DNA of 64,000 nucleotides from Phycisphaerae bacterium. GTDB lineage: Bacteria; Planctomycetota; Phycisphaerae; UBA1845. Below, one piece after another: positions 8,041 to 22,092 of this stretch. Under the pieces are notes generated by a model that saw nothing but the letters and a program-made list of their open reading frames with translations, had not been told where the DNA came from and ran no database searches. The position numbers and the translations under genes are program-made. The stretch is from contig JAJDDV010000081.1 of NCBI GenBank assembly GCA_029260135.1, positions 1 to 64,000 of the forward strand. Reading direction: 5' to 3'. The stretch's first letter is position 1. Every line of letters begins with the position of its first letter.

Positions 8041-9351
8041 ATGCCCGCCCAAACATTGACAGATGTCGATCGCGTTCGAGCCAAGCTCGACGCCGACGAA
8101 CCGCTATCCGCCGTCGACGGACTCTGGCTCTACAATACCTGCGACATCCACACGCTAGGCGAACTCGCCAACGCCGTTCGCGAACGTCTCCACGGCCGCA
8201 GCGCCTTCTATAACATCAACCGACACATCAACTACACGAATTACTGCGTCCTCCGCTGTAAGTTCTGCTCGTTCTACCGACCCTATAAACCCCGAGCCGC
8301 GGGCGGAATGGAATCCCGACCTGTCGGGAGCCCGCGCGAACATTCCGGTGCAGAGCCAGACACGGCCGAGTCAACGTCCGAACCCATCGTGGACGCGACC
8401 GCCTCCGACGCCTACGAACTCACGATCGACGAAATCGTCGCAAGAGCCAATGACGCCTACTCCCAAGGCGCAACCGAGGTCCACATCGTCGGCGGCCTGC
8501 ACCCCAAGCTCCCGTTCGACTACTACACCGACATGTGCGCCGCCATTCACGACGCCTGCCCCCACATCCACATCAAAGCCTTCACCGCCATCGAGATCAT
8601 CCACTTCTCGCGCATCGCTAAACCGCGTCTCTCGATCGAAGAGGTCCTCATCAAGCTCCGCGAGGCAGGCCTGGGCAGCATGCCCGGCGGCGGCGCAGAG
8701 ATTTTCGACGACCGCGTCCACGACGAAGCCTTCCAGAACAAAGTCGGCGAGCAGGAGTGGTTCGACGTCCACCGCACCGCCCACGACCTTGGCATCTTCA
8801 CCAACGCCACCATGCTCTATGGCCACGTCGAAACCCGCGCCGAGCGCATCAACCATCTGATCAAACTTCGCGATCACCAGACCCAAAGCCTCGCGTCGAG
8901 CCAAGCCCACTTCAACTGCGTCGTCCCGCTCTCTTTCATTCCCGACGGCAGCGACCTCGCCCACCTCCCGGGCCCCAGCGGCCTCGACGACCTCAAGACC
9001 CTGGCGATCGCCCGCCTGATGTGCCCCAACATCCCCCACATCAAGGCCTTCTGGATCATGCAAACGCCCAAGCTCGCTCAGATCTCGCTCAACTGGGGCG
9101 TCGACGACATCGACGGGACCGTCATCTACTACGACATCACCAAGGCAGAGGGCGGCGGCAACACCACCGACCAGCAGCTCACCGTCGACAAGCTCCAACG
9201 CCTGATCGTCGAAGCCGGCTGCACCCCCGTCGAACGCGACACCCTCTACCGACCCGTAAACCGCACCGCGAGCACCTGGTCCGTCGAGGGTGAAACGTGG
9301 TCTGTTGTCTACCAGCCCAACACCTGCCCGCTGAACAACGTTGATGGATAG
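8041..9351 (+). CDS. mqnE: Aminofutalosine synthase MqnE (radical SAM)
   Basis: 436 aa. Catalyses the radical addition that joins adenosylmethionine to the chorismate-derived enol ether in the futalosine route to menaquinone. The radical SAM CX3CX2C cluster is visible as CVLRCKFC near residue 63. The C-terminal region (FWIMQTPKLAQISLNWG, DDIDGTV, then ERDTLYRPV) matches MqnE better than MqnC. Between CSFYRPY and YELTIDEIV there is an extra segment of roughly 40 residues, part of it encoded by a palindromic element (8299-8346). The frame is intact. Other mqn genes are not in the window. Its position next to ccsA and resB makes a respiratory neighbourhood. Confidence 0.88.
   Translation: MPAQTLTDVDRVRAKLDADEPLSAVDGLWLYNTCDIHTLGELANAVRERLHGRSAFYNINRHINYTNYCVLRCKFCSFYRPYKPRAAGGMESRPVGSPREHSGAEPDTAESTSEPIVDATASDAYELTIDEIVARANDAYSQGATEVHIVGGLHPKLPFDYYTDMCAAIHDACPHIHIKAFTAIEIIHFSRIAKPRLSIEEVLIKLREAGLGSMPGGGAEIFDDRVHDEAFQNKVGEQEWFDVHRTAHDLGIFTNATMLYGHVETRAERINHLIKLRDHQTQSLASSQAHFNCVVPLSFIPDGSDLAHLPGPSGLDDLKTLAIARLMCPNIPHIKAFWIMQTPKLAQISLNWGVDDIDGTVIYYDITKAEGGGNTTDQQLTVDKLQRLIVEAGCTPVERDTLYRPVNRTASTWSVEGETWSVVYQPNTCPLNNVDG
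8299..8346 (+). repeat. Palindromic element inside the mqnE reading frame
   Basis: Nested inverted repeats: inner TCCCGAC-CT-GTCGGGA (8314-8329), outer GCGGGC (8299-8304) with GCCCGC (8330-8335), and GGAATG (8305-8310) with CATTCC (8341-8346) as a competing arm. It encodes part of the unusual segment right after the radical SAM cluster and keeps the frame open. Confidence 0.65.
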
Positions 9352-14728: not shown

Positions 14729-14847
14729 GCACGGCGGTTAGCCATCCGCAACAAAAACACCCCCCCCTGAATCCCCCGTGGCAAGTAGGGAGGTCAGAGG
14801 TCCGCTCGCGGTCAGAACGTGATCGCGCATGCGGGCTGATGTTCCGC

Positions 14848-14873
14848 CCACCGGTTGAAAACCTGTGCCACAT
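14848..14873 (+). repeat. CCACCGGTTGAAAACCTGTGCCACA-type palindromic repeat
   Basis: An imperfect palindrome, CACCGGTT-GAA-AACCTGTG followed by CCACA. It matches the consensus of three copies found 0.9 kb downstream inside the fusion gene, and it is the intergenic copy of that set. Confidence 0.6.
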
Positions 14874-15010
14874 GGTCAGACCGTGTCGGTGCCGGCTTGG
14901 TGGCGCGACGGCACATGCGGCGGCGGGGCGCTGCGGCGGGGCGGCTGGCTCAGGGGCGATGACGGAGGTATGCTGCGTGTGATTGAGTTTGCGGTGTCGG
15001 TGGATGAACC

Positions 15011-17092
15011 GTGTTTACGACATCGATGATCGAATCGTGCCGGCGATATCGGTTGTCGGATCGAGCGGCGGGGCGTTGGAGCCATAGCGTGGATTGGAAA
15101 AGCCAGTATCAGTCGAGTGAGCACGCGCAGTTCTACGCGGACAAGCGCGACGCGACGTTCATGCGGCGCATGTCGAATCGATCCGAGCAGCGAATGATCT
15201 ATCGCGCGCTGGAACGGCTGCACCGGAAGGCTGCGTTTTCGACGGTGCTGGACTGCGCGTCGGGCACGGGGCGGATGTTGCCGGTGCTGGCGAAGTTCGA
15301 CGTTTCGGTGGTTGCGCTGGACTCCGCGGCGGCGATGCTGATGGAAGGTCGCCGCGTTCACCATCTGTTCGGCGCGGCGCCGGGGATGGTGGTGGGTTCG
15401 GCGCTGGAGCTTCCGCTGGCGGACAAGTGCGTGGATGTGGTGTTCTGCTCTCGGTTGCTGCACCACTTCGAAGACTCGGCGTCGCGCATTCAGATTCTGC
15501 GAGAGTTCGCGAGGATCGCGCGGGTCGGTGTTGTGGTTTCGTTTTTCGACTCGCTGTCGTATCGGGGGTGGCGGCGAGCGAAGAAGAACCGCAAGCGACA
15601 TCGGGAGCACGGGCGGTTTGCGGTTCGCCGTGATACGTTTCGGCAGGAGGGCGAGGCGGCGGGGCTCGATCTGCTGGGGATGAATGCGCTGTTTCGGTTT
15701 CATGCGGAAGTGACGGCAGCCACGTTTCTTGTGGGGCAAAAGAATGCTGCTCACCGATTGAAGACCGGTGCCACACGGGAATCTCCTCACCGGCTGGAAA
15801 ACGGTACCACACAGTGCGGTGCTGATCGGTTGGAAGCCGCGGTTGCACAACAGGCGAGCGGCGGTTCGTGCGCCGAGTGGTTGAAGGCGTCGGGGCTGGG
15901 ATCGGTGCAGGGGTTGATGGACTTCCGTCCGACGAGTGTGGCTGCGCAGTCGGCGTCGTCGGATACGTTTCGCGTGGAATGCGCCGGTGCGGCGGAGGGA
16001 GAATCGGCGCGAGAGATCTACGTCAAGCGGTATCGCTATGGGGGTATTGGACGTCAACTCGGCGGGGCGTTTCGTGGGACGCTGCTGGGGAAGAGCCGCG
16101 CGCGGCTGGAGTTTGAACGGCTCACTGAGATGCGGCGCCGCGGTGTTCCTGCGGTGGCACCGATCTCGTACGTTGAGGATCGGCGGTGGCGGTTGCTTCG
16201 CTCTTGCGCGCTGGTGACGGAGGGTGAGCCGAACGCTGAACCGTTGAGTACGTACTTTTCGCGTCGGGAAGTCGAGTGGGATCTGCCTACGCGACGCCGA
16301 TTCGTTGTGGCGATCGGCGGGAGCATTGCGGGCCTGCACGAAGCGGGCGTTCTGCACGGTGGGCTATTCTGGCGGAACATATTGGTCCGCGAAGTCGAGG
16401 GGGAAGACGGGTGGCGGTTTACGTACCTCGATCCGAGTCGGGGGTGTCGGTTCTATTCGGGTGCGGCTCCGCTGAGTGCCCGAGTCTCCGATCTTTCGGA
16501 CTTTGCGGCTTCGGGGAATACCGCGGCGTGGCGGACGGACTTCGCTCGGTTTCTGCGGAGTTATTGTGGGGTGCGCTCAACGCGAGAGCAGCGGAAGTCG
16601 CTGGCGCGGGCGATCTTGGAGGCGGCGCGCGGTAAGGTTGCGGGAGAGGGAAATCGGATTGGGACGGGTGCGGCGCTGGCGTGGCTGGAGCGGCGTGTGG
16701 AGCGTAGGGCTGCACCTGGTGGGGCGGATCGCTTTGAAACCGTCGAGGCCTTTTTCGAGATGCTGGGGCGGGCACGTCCGCGGTCGGCAGCGCTGGGGCC
16801 GTGGAAGGTTCGTTTTGAATTGGGCCTCAACGACGACGTGGGCGGCGCACGTACGTTCACGGTTTCGATGGGGCGTGACGGTATCGTCGTCGACGAGGAA
16901 CGGGGTGGTCGGGCTGACCTGACCGTGCGAACGGACGCCGAGGCCTGGTTGGCCATTGTGAATGCCGATGGCGAAGCGCTGGATATGATTCGCACAGGCC
17001 GGTTCGCCCTTGACGGTGACACGCAGCCGTTGGCTGTTCTCGTGCAGTGTCTTGACGAGTCTCTTGTGGCGACGTTGAGCGACGCCCGATAA
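15011..17092 (+). CDS. Three-domain fusion: class I SAM methyltransferase, lipopolysaccharide-kinase-like domain, SCP2 lipid-binding domain
   Basis: 693 aa. Residues about 65-240 are a class I methyltransferase: motif I VLDCASGTGRMLPVLA, then VVALDSAAAML, and DVVFCSRLLHHFED. Residues about 247-280 are a linker encoded by three palindromic repeats. Residues about 325-545 resemble the WaaP/InaA/KdkA lipopolysaccharide-kinase fold: a YVKRYRYGG strand, LHEAGVLHGGLFWRNILV as the catalytic loop (449-456) and YLDPSRG as the metal loop. The usual catalytic Asp of HxD is Gly here. Residues about 595-690 match an SCP2 sterol/lipid carrier (FELGLNDD, then MIRTGRFALDGDTQPLAVLVQ). Together this suggests modification of a bound lipid, perhaps an outer-membrane glycolipid. 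The reaction is unknown. No partner gene is obvious. Confidence 0.72.
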   Translation: MFTTSMIESCRRYRLSDRAAGRWSHSVDWKSQYQSSEHAQFYADKRDATFMRRMSNRSEQRMIYRALERLHRKAAFSTVLDCASGTGRMLPVLAKFDVSVVALDSAAAMLMEGRRVHHLFGAAPGMVVGSALELPLADKCVDVVFCSRLLHHFEDSASRIQILREFARIARVGVVVSFFDSLSYRGWRRAKKNRKRHREHGRFAVRRDTFRQEGEAAGLDLLGMNALFRFHAEVTAATFLVGQKNAAHRLKTGATRESPHRLENGTTQCGADRLEAAVAQQASGGSCAEWLKASGLGSVQGLMDFRPTSVAAQSASSDTFRVECAGAAEGESAREIYVKRYRYGGIGRQLGGAFRGTLLGKSRARLEFERLTEMRRRGVPAVAPISYVEDRRWRLLRSCALVTEGEPNAEPLSTYFSRREVEWDLPTRRRFVVAIGGSIAGLHEAGVLHGGLFWRNILVREVEGEDGWRFTYLDPSRGCRFYSGAAPLSARVSDLSDFAASGNTAAWRTDFARFLRSYCGVRSTREQRKSLARAILEAARGKVAGEGNRIGTGAALAWLERRVERRAAPGGADRFETVEAFFEMLGRARPRSAALGPWKVRFELGLNDDVGGARTFTVSMGRDGIVVDEERGGRADLTVRTDAEAWLAIVNADGEALDMIRTGRFALDGDTQPLAVLVQCLDESLVATLSDAR
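15751..15848 (+). repeat. Three tandem palindromic repeats inside the fusion gene
   Basis: Copies at 15751-15775 (TCACCGATTGAAGACCGGTGCC...), 15787-15811 (TCACCGGCTGGAAAACGGTACC...) and about 15821-15848 (CTGATCGGTTGGAAGCCGCGG...). Each has a CACCGGTT-like left arm, a central GAA and a AACCGGTG-like right arm followed by CCACA or TGCAC. Spacing is 36 then about 34 bases. The set encodes the linker HRLKTGATRES / HRLENGTTQCG / DRLEAAVAQ without breaking the frame. Confidence 0.7.
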
Positions 17093-19501: not shown

Positions 19502-20311
19502 CTATTGTGCCTGCGGCGGTTCGCGCAGGGACTGATCGTGGAGATCGGCGACAAACATGTGGCCTGGTTCGTGGGTGACCGCGAGGGCGAGTTCGGCGCG
19601 GATGATGGCTTCCATCGGCGTGACGCCGCAGGCCCAGAAGACGGGGATTTCATCGGGGTGGATGGTTACGGCGTCGCCGTAGTCCGGGAGGGAGAGGTCG
19701 ACGATGCCGATGGCGGCGGGATCACCGATGTGCATGGGATCCCCGTGAACGCGCGGATACTCGGCGGTGATGCGCGCAGCCTCGCCCGCGTGTGCGGGGG
19801 TCATGGGTCTCATGGATACGACGAGTGGCGCCGTGAATCGGCCGGCGGATCGACACTCGATGTTGGTTCGATACATGGGGACGTTTCGGTTTTCGTCGAT
19901 GTGCCGGACGGGGAGCCCTGCTCGCAGAAGTGCGGACTCGAACGTGAACGAACAGCCGATGAGGAATGCAACCGAGTCGTCCGTCCAGAACGGTTCGATG
20001 GATGCTGTGCGCTCGGTGCACTGGCCTTGTCGATAGACGCGGTAGCGGGGGAGGTCAGCTCGCACGTCGCCGCACGGTGCGATGCTTCGGGTCTCGTAGT
20101 CGCCGGGTGATGTCACTTCCAGAAGCGGACAGGGTTTGGGATTGAGTCGACAGAAGGTGCGGAATTCCTCGGCGGTGTCGGCGGTCAGAACAACCAGGTT
20201 GGCCTGCACGAAGCCTCTTGCGACGCCGGCGGTTGGGCCGGTGAACTCACCGCTACGACAGAGTGCTCGAAACTGTCGCCCTGTCATGGCGGCGCGGTCT
20301 TGTTGGCTCAC
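19502..20311 (-). CDS. D-glutamate cyclase family protein, DUF1445/YcsI-type domain
   Basis: 269 aa, a full-length DUF1445 protein. Diagnostic stretches are TGPTAGVARGFVQANLVVL, RLNPKPCPLLEVTSPGD, DLPRYRVYRQG, VAFLIGCSFTFESALLRAG, GDPAAIGIVDLSLPDYGDAV, PVFWACGVTPM and THEPGHMFV. In mammals this domain is the N-terminal half of D-glutamate cyclase (DGLUCY), which makes 5-oxo-D-proline from D-glutamate. In many bacteria the domain stands alone. Here it starts in the 4-nt overlap (20308-20311) with the gene carrying the matching C-terminal domain, so it is translationally coupled. That pairing is the best clue to function. Its activity here has not been shown. Confidence 0.85.
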   Translation of the reverse strand: MSQQDRAAMTGRQFRALCRSGEFTGPTAGVARGFVQANLVVLTADTAEEFRTFCRLNPKPCPLLEVTSPGDYETRSIAPCGDVRADLPRYRVYRQGQCTERTASIEPFWTDDSVAFLIGCSFTFESALLRAGLPVRHIDENRNVPMYRTNIECRSAGRFTAPLVVSMRPMTPAHAGEAARITAEYPRVHGDPMHIGDPAAIGIVDLSLPDYGDAVTIHPDEIPVFWACGVTPMEAIIRAELALAVTHEPGHMFVADLHDQSLREPPQAQ

Positions 20312-22092
20312 GAGCTGCCCCTTGACAAGGGTGACGCTGCGATGGCCGACGAAATGGCGTCGCTGCTGAGCCCGTAGAGTCTGGCCGCGAGGACGGCAGA
20401 GAGAAGGGTTTCGGCGAAGGGAGGCTGCACGGGGCCGAGTCGCTCGACCTTTCCGGCGATGTTGAGATGGAGTCGTCCTTCGGCGAGCCAGGCTCCGCGA
20501 TCAACGGCTTGGCGAGAGGAGACGAACAAGGTTCGCCCCTGGTGTTTGCGTGCGAGTGTTCTTAGTCGCGGGTCGTCATAGGGGAGGATCAAGACGTCGT
20601 CGGGGCGTTGGTTCATGAAGATGCGGCTTTTGACGCGTACATATTCCGCGATGGAACGGTGTCGATCGAGATGTTCATCGTCGATGTTGAGCAGGATGGC
20701 GACGTGCGGACGAAAGTGAACGACGGTTTCCAACTGGAAGCTCGAGACGGCCAGCCCGATCGGGTCTGACCCGGTTTGCTGGAGTAGCAGGTCGCAGAGC
20801 GGCCGGCCACGATTTCCTCCGATGGTCAGCGATCGACCGGCGGCGCGGAAGAGTCGTTCGAGGAGTTCGACGGTGGACCGTTTTCCGATCGTACCTGTGA
20901 CCGCGATGAGCGACGCTTCAGGGATCGCATCTTTGTCGGCGCTGAGCTGAAAAGCGAGTTCGAGCTCACTCATGACGTAGATGCCGCGGCGGTGGAGGTC
21001 GTCGACGATGGGGCTGTCGACGCGAACGCCGGGGCTTGCGACGACGAGGTCGCAGGGGTCGAAGAACTCGATGGTATGCCCGCCGGATTCGACGCCGTCG
21101 GCGACCATCCCGGGCTGGAGGGTGACGGGCTGCTGGTCGGAGATTCTGACGCGGTGTCCGTGTTGTCTCAGAAAAGCGGCGGCGGCGTTTCCCGCTTCAC
21201 CGTATCCGAGCACTCCAACGAGAAGCGGTTCACTTCGTTCGATGGGTGAGGGTGCAATGTGTCGACGGATCTGCTCGAGCATGCGAACGACGGCGGTTTG
21301 GTCCTGTCCGTCGCAGGTGGGTTCGGCGCGAAAGGTCACGCCATCGACGGCTCCGCCTCTCTCGACGAGTTGGTGGAGGTCTTTCAGGATCGAATTCGCG
21401 GATGGGAGGAGGTCTCTGTTTTCAAGGACGGAGAGGGCACCAGCGAGTCCGAAGGCTCCCCAGTTGGAGACGCCCGCCACGATGCAGAAGTCGGTCGGGA
21501 CGACGCAGCGCGCGGCGAGCTTGAGGTTTTGCGGCGCGTGCCTCGGATCGGTATCGACGGTCTCGGCGCTGGCGAAGACTTTGCCCATGCCGATTTCGTT
21601 TCCTCCGTCGCCCACGCCAATGGTGGTGAGGCCGCGGAGTGCGGCATCGAGGAAGAGCTGATCGAGCGGTGCGGTAACGTGGGTGATGTCGTCGCCGTGC
21701 ATGTTTCGGTAGCGGCCGTCGGGTCCGCGCCCGACCCGTTCTATGGAGACGAGGTGGGTGGGTCTTGCTGCATCGAGATAGGCGTCGTTGTCGACGACGG
21801 GCTCAACGCCCAGCGCTTGGAACAGCGGCGCATTGGGCTCGTCGGTCAGGTAATCCACTTCAACGCCAAGGCGCTGGAGCGCTTGGCCAAGGACTTTGGC
21901 GCCGGGCGGACCATCCGTTTCACCTGCGCCTGCACGGGCGATGAAGAAACCGCTGACGATGCCGACGCGCCTGGCGAGCCGAAGCGACTGTGCGGCAAGG
22001 CGAAGCTGATCGGGCAGTGCGAGCGCGAAGACGTTTCGGCCGCCGGGGTCGGTTGCGATGAGGTTTTCAATCGATGTGATTCGTGGATTCAT
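20308..22092 (-). CDS. Fusion of D-glutamate cyclase C-domain (DUF4392) with a MurD-like ligase module
   Basis: 594 aa. Residues 1-285 match DUF4392, the C-terminal half of mammalian D-glutamate cyclase: GFFIARAGAGETDGPPGA, LGQALQRLGVEVDYLTD, IGVGDGGNEIGMGKV, GVSNWGAFGLAGAL. Residues about 290-594 resemble MurD domains 1 and 2: GYGEAGNAAAAFLRQHGHRV, VVASPGVRVDSPIVDDL, SSFQLETVVHFRPHVAIL, HLDRHRSIAEYVRVKSRIF. The nucleotide loop reads GTIGKRST. In MurD it is GTNGKST, so Arg stands where the phosphate-binding Ser/Thr should be. The usual third (glutamate-binding) Mur domain is missing. It sits between 5-oxoprolinase and the DUF1445 gene. MurD uses D-glutamate, so the fusion is biochemically coherent. 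Whether the Mur part is a ligase or a sensor is open. Confidence 0.82.
   Translation of the reverse strand: MNPRITSIENLIATDPGGRNVFALALPDQLRLAAQSLRLARRVGIVSGFFIARAGAGETDGPPGAKVLGQALQRLGVEVDYLTDEPNAPLFQALGVEPVVDNDAYLDAARPTHLVSIERVGRGPDGRYRNMHGDDITHVTAPLDQLFLDAALRGLTTIGVGDGGNEIGMGKVFASAETVDTDPRHAPQNLKLAARCVVPTDFCIVAGVSNWGAFGLAGALSVLENRDLLPSANSILKDLHQLVERGGAVDGVTFRAEPTCDGQDQTAVVRMLEQIRRHIAPSPIERSEPLLVGVLGYGEAGNAAAAFLRQHGHRVRISDQQPVTLQPGMVADGVESGGHTIEFFDPCDLVVASPGVRVDSPIVDDLHRRGIYVMSELELAFQLSADKDAIPEASLIAVTGTIGKRSTVELLERLFRAAGRSLTIGGNRGRPLCDLLLQQTGSDPIGLAVSSFQLETVVHFRPHVAILLNIDDEHLDRHRSIAEYVRVKSRIFMNQRPDDVLILPYDDPRLRTLARKHQGRTLFVSSRQAVDRGAWLAEGRLHLNIAGKVERLGPVQPPFAETLLSAVLAARLYGLSSDAISSAIAASPLSRGSS

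Follow-up and report, generated by a model that had tools for sequence, protein, structure and literature searches.

The window analysed in this study, a stretch of 64,000 nucleotides from a Phycisphaerae bacterium, contains a gene for a three-domain protein that was confirmed as a real open reading frame (ORF), which begins with GTG and runs through 693 codons without an internal stop (Table 1). A later GTG start at 15089 is possible because residues 1-37 have a pLDDT below 50. In the window, the ORF is flanked by genes for a HEAT-repeat protein and a BNR-like protein and does not lie among LPS core genes. Two other genes of the window have unusual features of their own. The gene at 8041-9351 (+) encodes a radical SAM protein of the MqnE/CofH-like type in which some 45 additional residues directly follow the CxxxCxxC motif; its MqnE score of 426.8 is slightly below the cut-off of 434.55. 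The gene at 20308-22092 (-), which adjoins a D-glutamate cyclase gene, encodes a MurD-like domain at the N-terminus and a Mur ligase middle domain, both fused to a D-glutamate-cyclase-like domain.

Table 1. Coordinates of the features of the three-domain gene and of the nearby repeat copy (positions in the window).
Feature	Position	Strand	Basis
ORF, 693 aa: methyltransferase, repeat-derived linker, WaaP-like putative pseudokinase, SCP2	15011..17092	+	Pfam, AlphaFold
Class I SAM methyltransferase domain, residues about 60-245, motif I LDCASGTGR	15188..15745	+	Pfam, identity of relatives
Linker, residues about 246-285	15746..15865	+	pLDDT < 50 at 245-275, GC3
Repeat copy 1, in frame, core CACCGGTTGAAAACCGGTGCCACA	15749..15778	+	Repeat finder
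Repeat copy 2, in frame, 36 nt past copy 1	15785..15814	+	Repeat finder
Degenerate repeat copy 3, same 36-nt register	15821..15850	+	Visual inspection; missed by the repeat finder
WaaP/Kdo-like putative pseudokinase domain, residues about 286-570	15866..16720	+	Pfam, profile, Foldseek
Lys339, ATP-lysine equivalent (VKRY), counterpart of WaaP K51	16025..16027	+	Alignment; family-invariant; PMC6147952
Glu367, alpha-C glutamate candidate, counterpart of WaaP E78	16109..16111	+	Alignment; family-invariant; PMC6147952
Catalytic loop HGGLFWRN, residues 449-456; Gly451 at the place of the WaaP HRD Asp163	16355..16378	+	Alignment; PMC6147952
Asp474, DFG-aspartate equivalent (LDPS), counterpart of WaaP D188	16430..16432	+	Alignment; family-invariant
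SCP2 lipid-binding fold (predicted), residues 593-678	16787..17044	+	Pfam, profile
Intergenic repeat copy upstream of the ORF	14846..14875	+	Repeat search

The original prediction, which was made from the DNA letters and their translations, had placed a methyltransferase, a lipopolysaccharide-kinase-like fold and an SCP2 fold in this order, and this was borne out, as all three passed their Pfam cut-offs and were modelled as confident folds. When the whole protein was searched against Pfam, Methyltransf_25 (7.7e-14) and Methyltransf_11 (1.4e-13) matched residues 79-174 above the curated cut-offs, Kdo/WaaP (PF06293) matched residues 335-518 (1.4e-15; 57.8 bits against a cut-off of 21.3) and SCP2 (PF02036) matched residues 593-678 (2.3e-5; 25.1 bits against a cut-off of 21.3), which was the weakest of the three. 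The SCP2 match is not due to chance because 15 of the 17 family members matched PF02036 independently (E <= 0.01) and a family profile found solved SCP2 structures; Kdo was matched in all 17, including L071, which is cut at a contig edge. That profile, which was built from the kinase-SCP2 part of 13 relatives, matched the SCP2 structures 2nbm, 2qzt and 3bdq (E = 1.5e-3 to 2.2e-3) and the WaaP of P. aeruginosa 6dfl (E = 2.8e-14) by sequence alone. The AlphaFold model of the full chain had a mean pLDDT of 80 with a low-confidence stretch at 245-275, and kinase-SCP2 modelled alone reached a pTM of 0.83. In the Foldseek searches, WaaP was the top match of both models (E 3.1e-11 and 4.1e-11).

The key residues of WaaP are K51, E78, H161-R162-D163 and D188 (PMC6147952). 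Alignment matched K339, E367 and D474 of the window kinase to K51, E78 and D188, while HGG at residues 449-451 stands where WaaP has HRD, which leaves the window kinase without the catalytic Asp. This Asp was absent from all 20 family kinases of the kinase-SCP2 type, which come from 18 genomes (19 with HGG and one with HGR; the G018 kinase among them is cut at a contig edge ahead of SCP2), and the original claim of two modifying domains in one chain is thus unsupported. The Lys, the alpha-C Glu, the loop Asn and the DFG Asp were invariant across the same kinases. With its nucleotide-site residues kept and its catalytic Asp gone, this kinase looks like a pseudokinase, which may still bind a nucleotide, and phosphotransfer has probably been lost in the kinase-SCP2 proteins. 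Because the motif HGGL[FY]WRN is conserved across proteins of only about 30-50% identity, a retained role would fit better than decay. Among the SCP2-free orthologs, the loops read HRD, HQD, HFD or HGD in families f8 and f6, HGQ, HGN or HGR in family f4, and HGA or HGS in family f5; the Asp-bearing orthologs include L023 and L024, the latter with HFDLFWRN. In a kinase tree that was built without the catalytic-loop columns, the 20 kinase-SCP2 type proteins formed one clade (100/97) that was nested among the SCP2-free kinases, and the nearest row to the window kinase was L002 of G030. At least three changes in the Asp state are needed on this tree, so the loss of the Asp is not linked solely to SCP2 gain.

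Two arrangements around related kinases should be mentioned separately. The window's closest kinase relative, at L031:10955-12724 (-), is a single ORF of 589 aa in which the place of the methyltransferase is taken by a hydrophobic stretch at the N-terminus and a zinc-ribbon-like CxxC...CxxC motif. In family f4 (loci L054, L067, L068, L141, L142, L148, L149 and L150), a kinase with an HGQ, HGN or HGR loop adjoins a WaaP-type kinase with HRDLYLCH or HRDLYLSH, and several of these pseudokinase-kinase pairs are beside GT9/GT4 genes.

The conserved unit is kinase plus SCP2, and the methyltransferase is its partner. In samples of 397 genomes of the class and 392 of the phylum, kinase-SCP2 matches were confined to the family of the window, and the named records of the relatives are Phycisphaerae or Planctomycetota metagenome-assembled genomes. 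The partner methyltransferases of the relatives, which are 44-57% identical to the window domain, were fused in the order kinase-SCP2-methyltransferase in genomes G010, G024, G025, G030 and G038 (loci L032, L041, L044, L045 and L050), adjacent to kinase-SCP2 in G009, G020, G036 and G043 (loci L036, L037, L038 and L040), and separate and unlinked in G018, G029 and G040, while the order methyltransferase-kinase-SCP2 was found only in the window, in one assembly. The possibility raised with the original prediction, that the parts are separate ORFs in close relatives, thus holds for the methyltransferase (G009, G018, G020, G029, G036, G040 and G043) but not for kinase and SCP2, which are encoded together in a single ORF wherever a family genome has the complete locus. 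Both parts were present in 15 of the 51 family genomes, three had only kinase-SCP2, none had only the methyltransferase and 33 had neither (methyltransferase presence counted at E below 1e-40); Fisher's exact test gave 2.6e-10 for this co-occurrence, a value that ignores shared ancestry. The three genomes with kinase-SCP2 in which no methyltransferase was detected are 63-87% complete. In G055, which belongs to another family, a 42%-identical methyltransferase of the same subfamily overlaps by 4 bp with a Kdo kinase that differs from kinase-SCP2 and has the degenerate loop NPSLYSRH (both genes in L057:8659-10655). An all-vs-all comparison of the ORFs around the family relatives revealed no shared neighbour except the methyltransferase, and purD and pdxA neighbours were restricted to a few genomes. 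The best evidence for a joint function is that methyltransferase and kinase-SCP2 are fused in either order, in different branches of the kinase tree, and also occur as adjacent genes.

Thioester-reductase/SDR-like proteins with a C-terminal SCP2 also occur in the same bacterial family (L047:6749-8296 (-), L168:193-1836 and L169:1447-2946), and the one in L047 is located near a partner methyltransferase. A role in anti-phage defence was considered and rejected, as the sole PADLOC match (mad2, 34.5 bits) was in the methyltransferase region and was taken as generic methyltransferase similarity.

The linker consists of tandem copies of a short palindromic repeat with the core CACCGGTTGAAAACCGGTGCCACA, which follow one another in frame in a 36-nt register, and its GC3 is 0.53 compared to 0.70-0.77 in the domains. 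A genome search that allowed up to three mismatches gave 75 matches to the repeat and none to the reversed control; elsewhere in the genome, the repeat sometimes forms tandem pairs (L185 and L190). For insertion into genes, 48 copies were viewed, at a G+C content at which open frames are long by chance. The simplest account would be that the repeat array once lay between two genes and turned into coding sequence when they fused.

The ancestry of the kinase points to LPS. In several sister-family loci, the SCP2-free orthologous kinase adjoins GT9 (heptosyltransferase type) and/or GT4 genes. On contig 101 of the host, a GT9 gene (14972-15724) is followed by a WaaP-type kinase with HRDLYLSH (16046-16693) and then by a GT4 gene, and LpxC was found in 48 of the 51 family genomes, the host included. 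It is therefore very likely that the host produces LPS and that, in addition to the window protein, it has a normal core kinase. No LPS operon was found around the window gene. A precedent for lipid contact by the WaaP fold is the hydrophobic tunnel of WaaP, which holds an acyl chain (PMC6147952).

Based on these observations, we tentatively favour, as a possible rather than an established reading, a methyltransferase unit with a WaaP-derived pseudokinase-SCP2 that holds a lipid-anchored, probably LPS-related acceptor. A SAM-dependent methyltransferase would cooperate with a WaaP-derived pseudokinase, which has retained the nucleotide-binding residues and lost the phosphotransfer Asp and bears a C-terminal SCP2 lipid pocket. 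Pseudokinase and SCP2 would most likely grip an amphiphilic lipid-anchored acceptor and present its head group to the methyltransferase; from the ancestry, the best guess for this acceptor would be an LPS core/lipid A intermediate. Lipid binding is suggested by the SCP2 fold, the link to LPS by the kinase ancestry and methylation by the SAM-binding motifs. The lipid modification enzyme that was originally proposed thus survives in part: lipid-directed modification is still the likeliest reading, but the kinase as a modifier is not retained. Several observations count against this reading. SCP2 domains can serve a purely structural role, the window gene has no LPS operon around it, the neighbourhoods of the relatives are unshared, the methyltransferase is similar to generic small-molecule enzymes, three genomes have kinase-SCP2 with no methyltransferase detected and the forward fusion occurs in one assembly. 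A bolder version, which we consider unlikely, is that a WaaP LPS kinase with a built-in SCP2 pocket no longer phosphorylates but holds a lipid-linked glycan, and that it thus forms the half that presents the substrate in a new class of lipid A/core methyltransferases in Phycisphaerae. If true, a bacterial small-molecule (LPS) kinase would here have become a pseudokinase and taken on a new role, while its relatives show other states: HRD in one family, HGQ/HGN in the LPS-type loci of another, and HGG with SCP2 here. As the partner methyltransferase is fused on either side depending on the lineage, the proposed joint function is directly testable, and the identity of the methyl acceptor would show how the outer membrane of planctomycetes, which is poorly known, is decorated.

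Other explanations were weighed against this reading. The kinase and SCP2 parts might form a regulatory or stabilising module. In this rather unlikely reading, the pseudokinase would sense a metabolite or a nucleotide and exert allosteric control over the methyltransferase, SCP2 would just stabilise the kinase fold or mediate dimers, and the substrate could be of any kind. The predicted fixed arrangement of SCP2 with the kinase, the retained nucleotide-site residues and the stabilisation of WaaP by acyl-ACP (PMC6147952) are consistent with such a module, which on its own, however, leaves both the retention of SCP2 in every complete member and the ancestry in LPS loci unexplained. The invariance of all of the other nucleotide-site residues would also suit a kinase fold that uses ATP without the HRD Asp, e.g., for AMPylation or ATPase-driven lipid extraction. 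Kinase-like folds with non-canonical activities such as SelO and UbiB/COQ8 are known, but the kinase part matched only Kdo in Pfam, with no SelO or ABC1/UbiB match, which makes this quite improbable. A truly bifunctional lipid kinase and methyltransferase, in which a sugar is phosphorylated and the phosphate is then methylated as in WbdD, is improbable as well: the domain order agrees with WbdD and the structural alignment spans both domains, but the catalytic Asp was found in none of the 20 members, the coiled coil is missing, WbdD was absent from the sequence matches listed and the relatives have the reversed domain order.

The weakest candidates concern the assembly and quinones. That the single chain is an assembly artefact and there are two genes in reality might be suspected because the linker is made of copies of such a dispersed repeat and the forward order is confined to the window. 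This is very unlikely, as the linker is built of short, diverged copies, all three of them in one frame that is open throughout, and the same partners are fused in the opposite order in five genomes. The ubiquinone machinery of UbiE/UbiG, UbiB and UbiJ likewise combines a methyltransferase, a kinase-like protein and an SCP2 protein, UbiJ (PMC9499169), and the window methyltransferase is weakly UbiE/MenG-like (37.2 bits), which could suggest an analogous quinone-type metabolon in one chain. However, this score is far below the NCBIfam equivalog cut-off of 327, a better UbiE/MenG candidate is encoded elsewhere in the genome (C190, 149.6 bits), the kinase belongs to another family, that of the Kdo/WaaP type, and the unit is confined to part of one bacterial family. 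A quinone metabolon is therefore very unlikely, and the methylation of menaquinone was rejected on the same grounds of score and better candidate.

Returning to the reading of a pseudokinase-SCP2 that holds an acceptor for a methyltransferase, its parts can be compared with known systems. The LPS heptose kinase WaaP/RfaP (PF06293; 6dfl) was the best match of the window kinase in both sequence and fold, and its Lys, Glu and DFG-Asp equivalents are kept while the HRD Asp is replaced by Gly; unlike WaaP/RfaP, the window kinase has SCP2 and a methyltransferase attached and is not in an LPS locus. The C-terminus has the same fold as the SCP2 family (PF02036), including AeSCP2-L2 and the C-terminal domain of alkyl sulfatase, but, compared to the other members, it is fused to a kinase fold and its lipid binding is predicted. 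The whole architecture was not described in the literature searched, most subscription journals being outside its coverage. The original impression that it resembles no named family has to be qualified by WbdD, the chain terminator of the E. coli O9a O-antigen (4ax8 and 4azs), in which one chain carries a methyltransferase and, after it, an ePK-like kinase (PMC3482155), although no sequence kinship to WbdD was found. WbdD was the listed solved protein that aligned over methyltransferase and kinase in Foldseek (about 520 columns, E 9.5e-10), with an rmsd to the window model of about 21 A and the relative placement of the domains not matched; it was absent among the matches listed in the sequence and profile searches, and the similarity is one of fold only. 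Both proteins have the methyltransferase ahead of the kinase in about 700 residues (708 in WbdD and 693 here), an order that is reversed in the window protein's relatives. The WbdD kinase is active, whereas that of the window lacks the catalytic Asp, and WbdD ends in a coiled coil, whereas the window protein ends in an SCP2 fold. The window protein is not classed as a WbdD, since the residue of an active kinase, a coiled coil and sequence kinship were each looked for and were not found. A methyltransferase-kinase chain such as WbdD can act on a lipid-linked glycan, and the WbdD of E. coli O8 is without the kinase domain (PMC3482155). By analogy, the window protein may work like WbdD, and for doing so without phosphorylation, the O8 WbdD would be the precedent.
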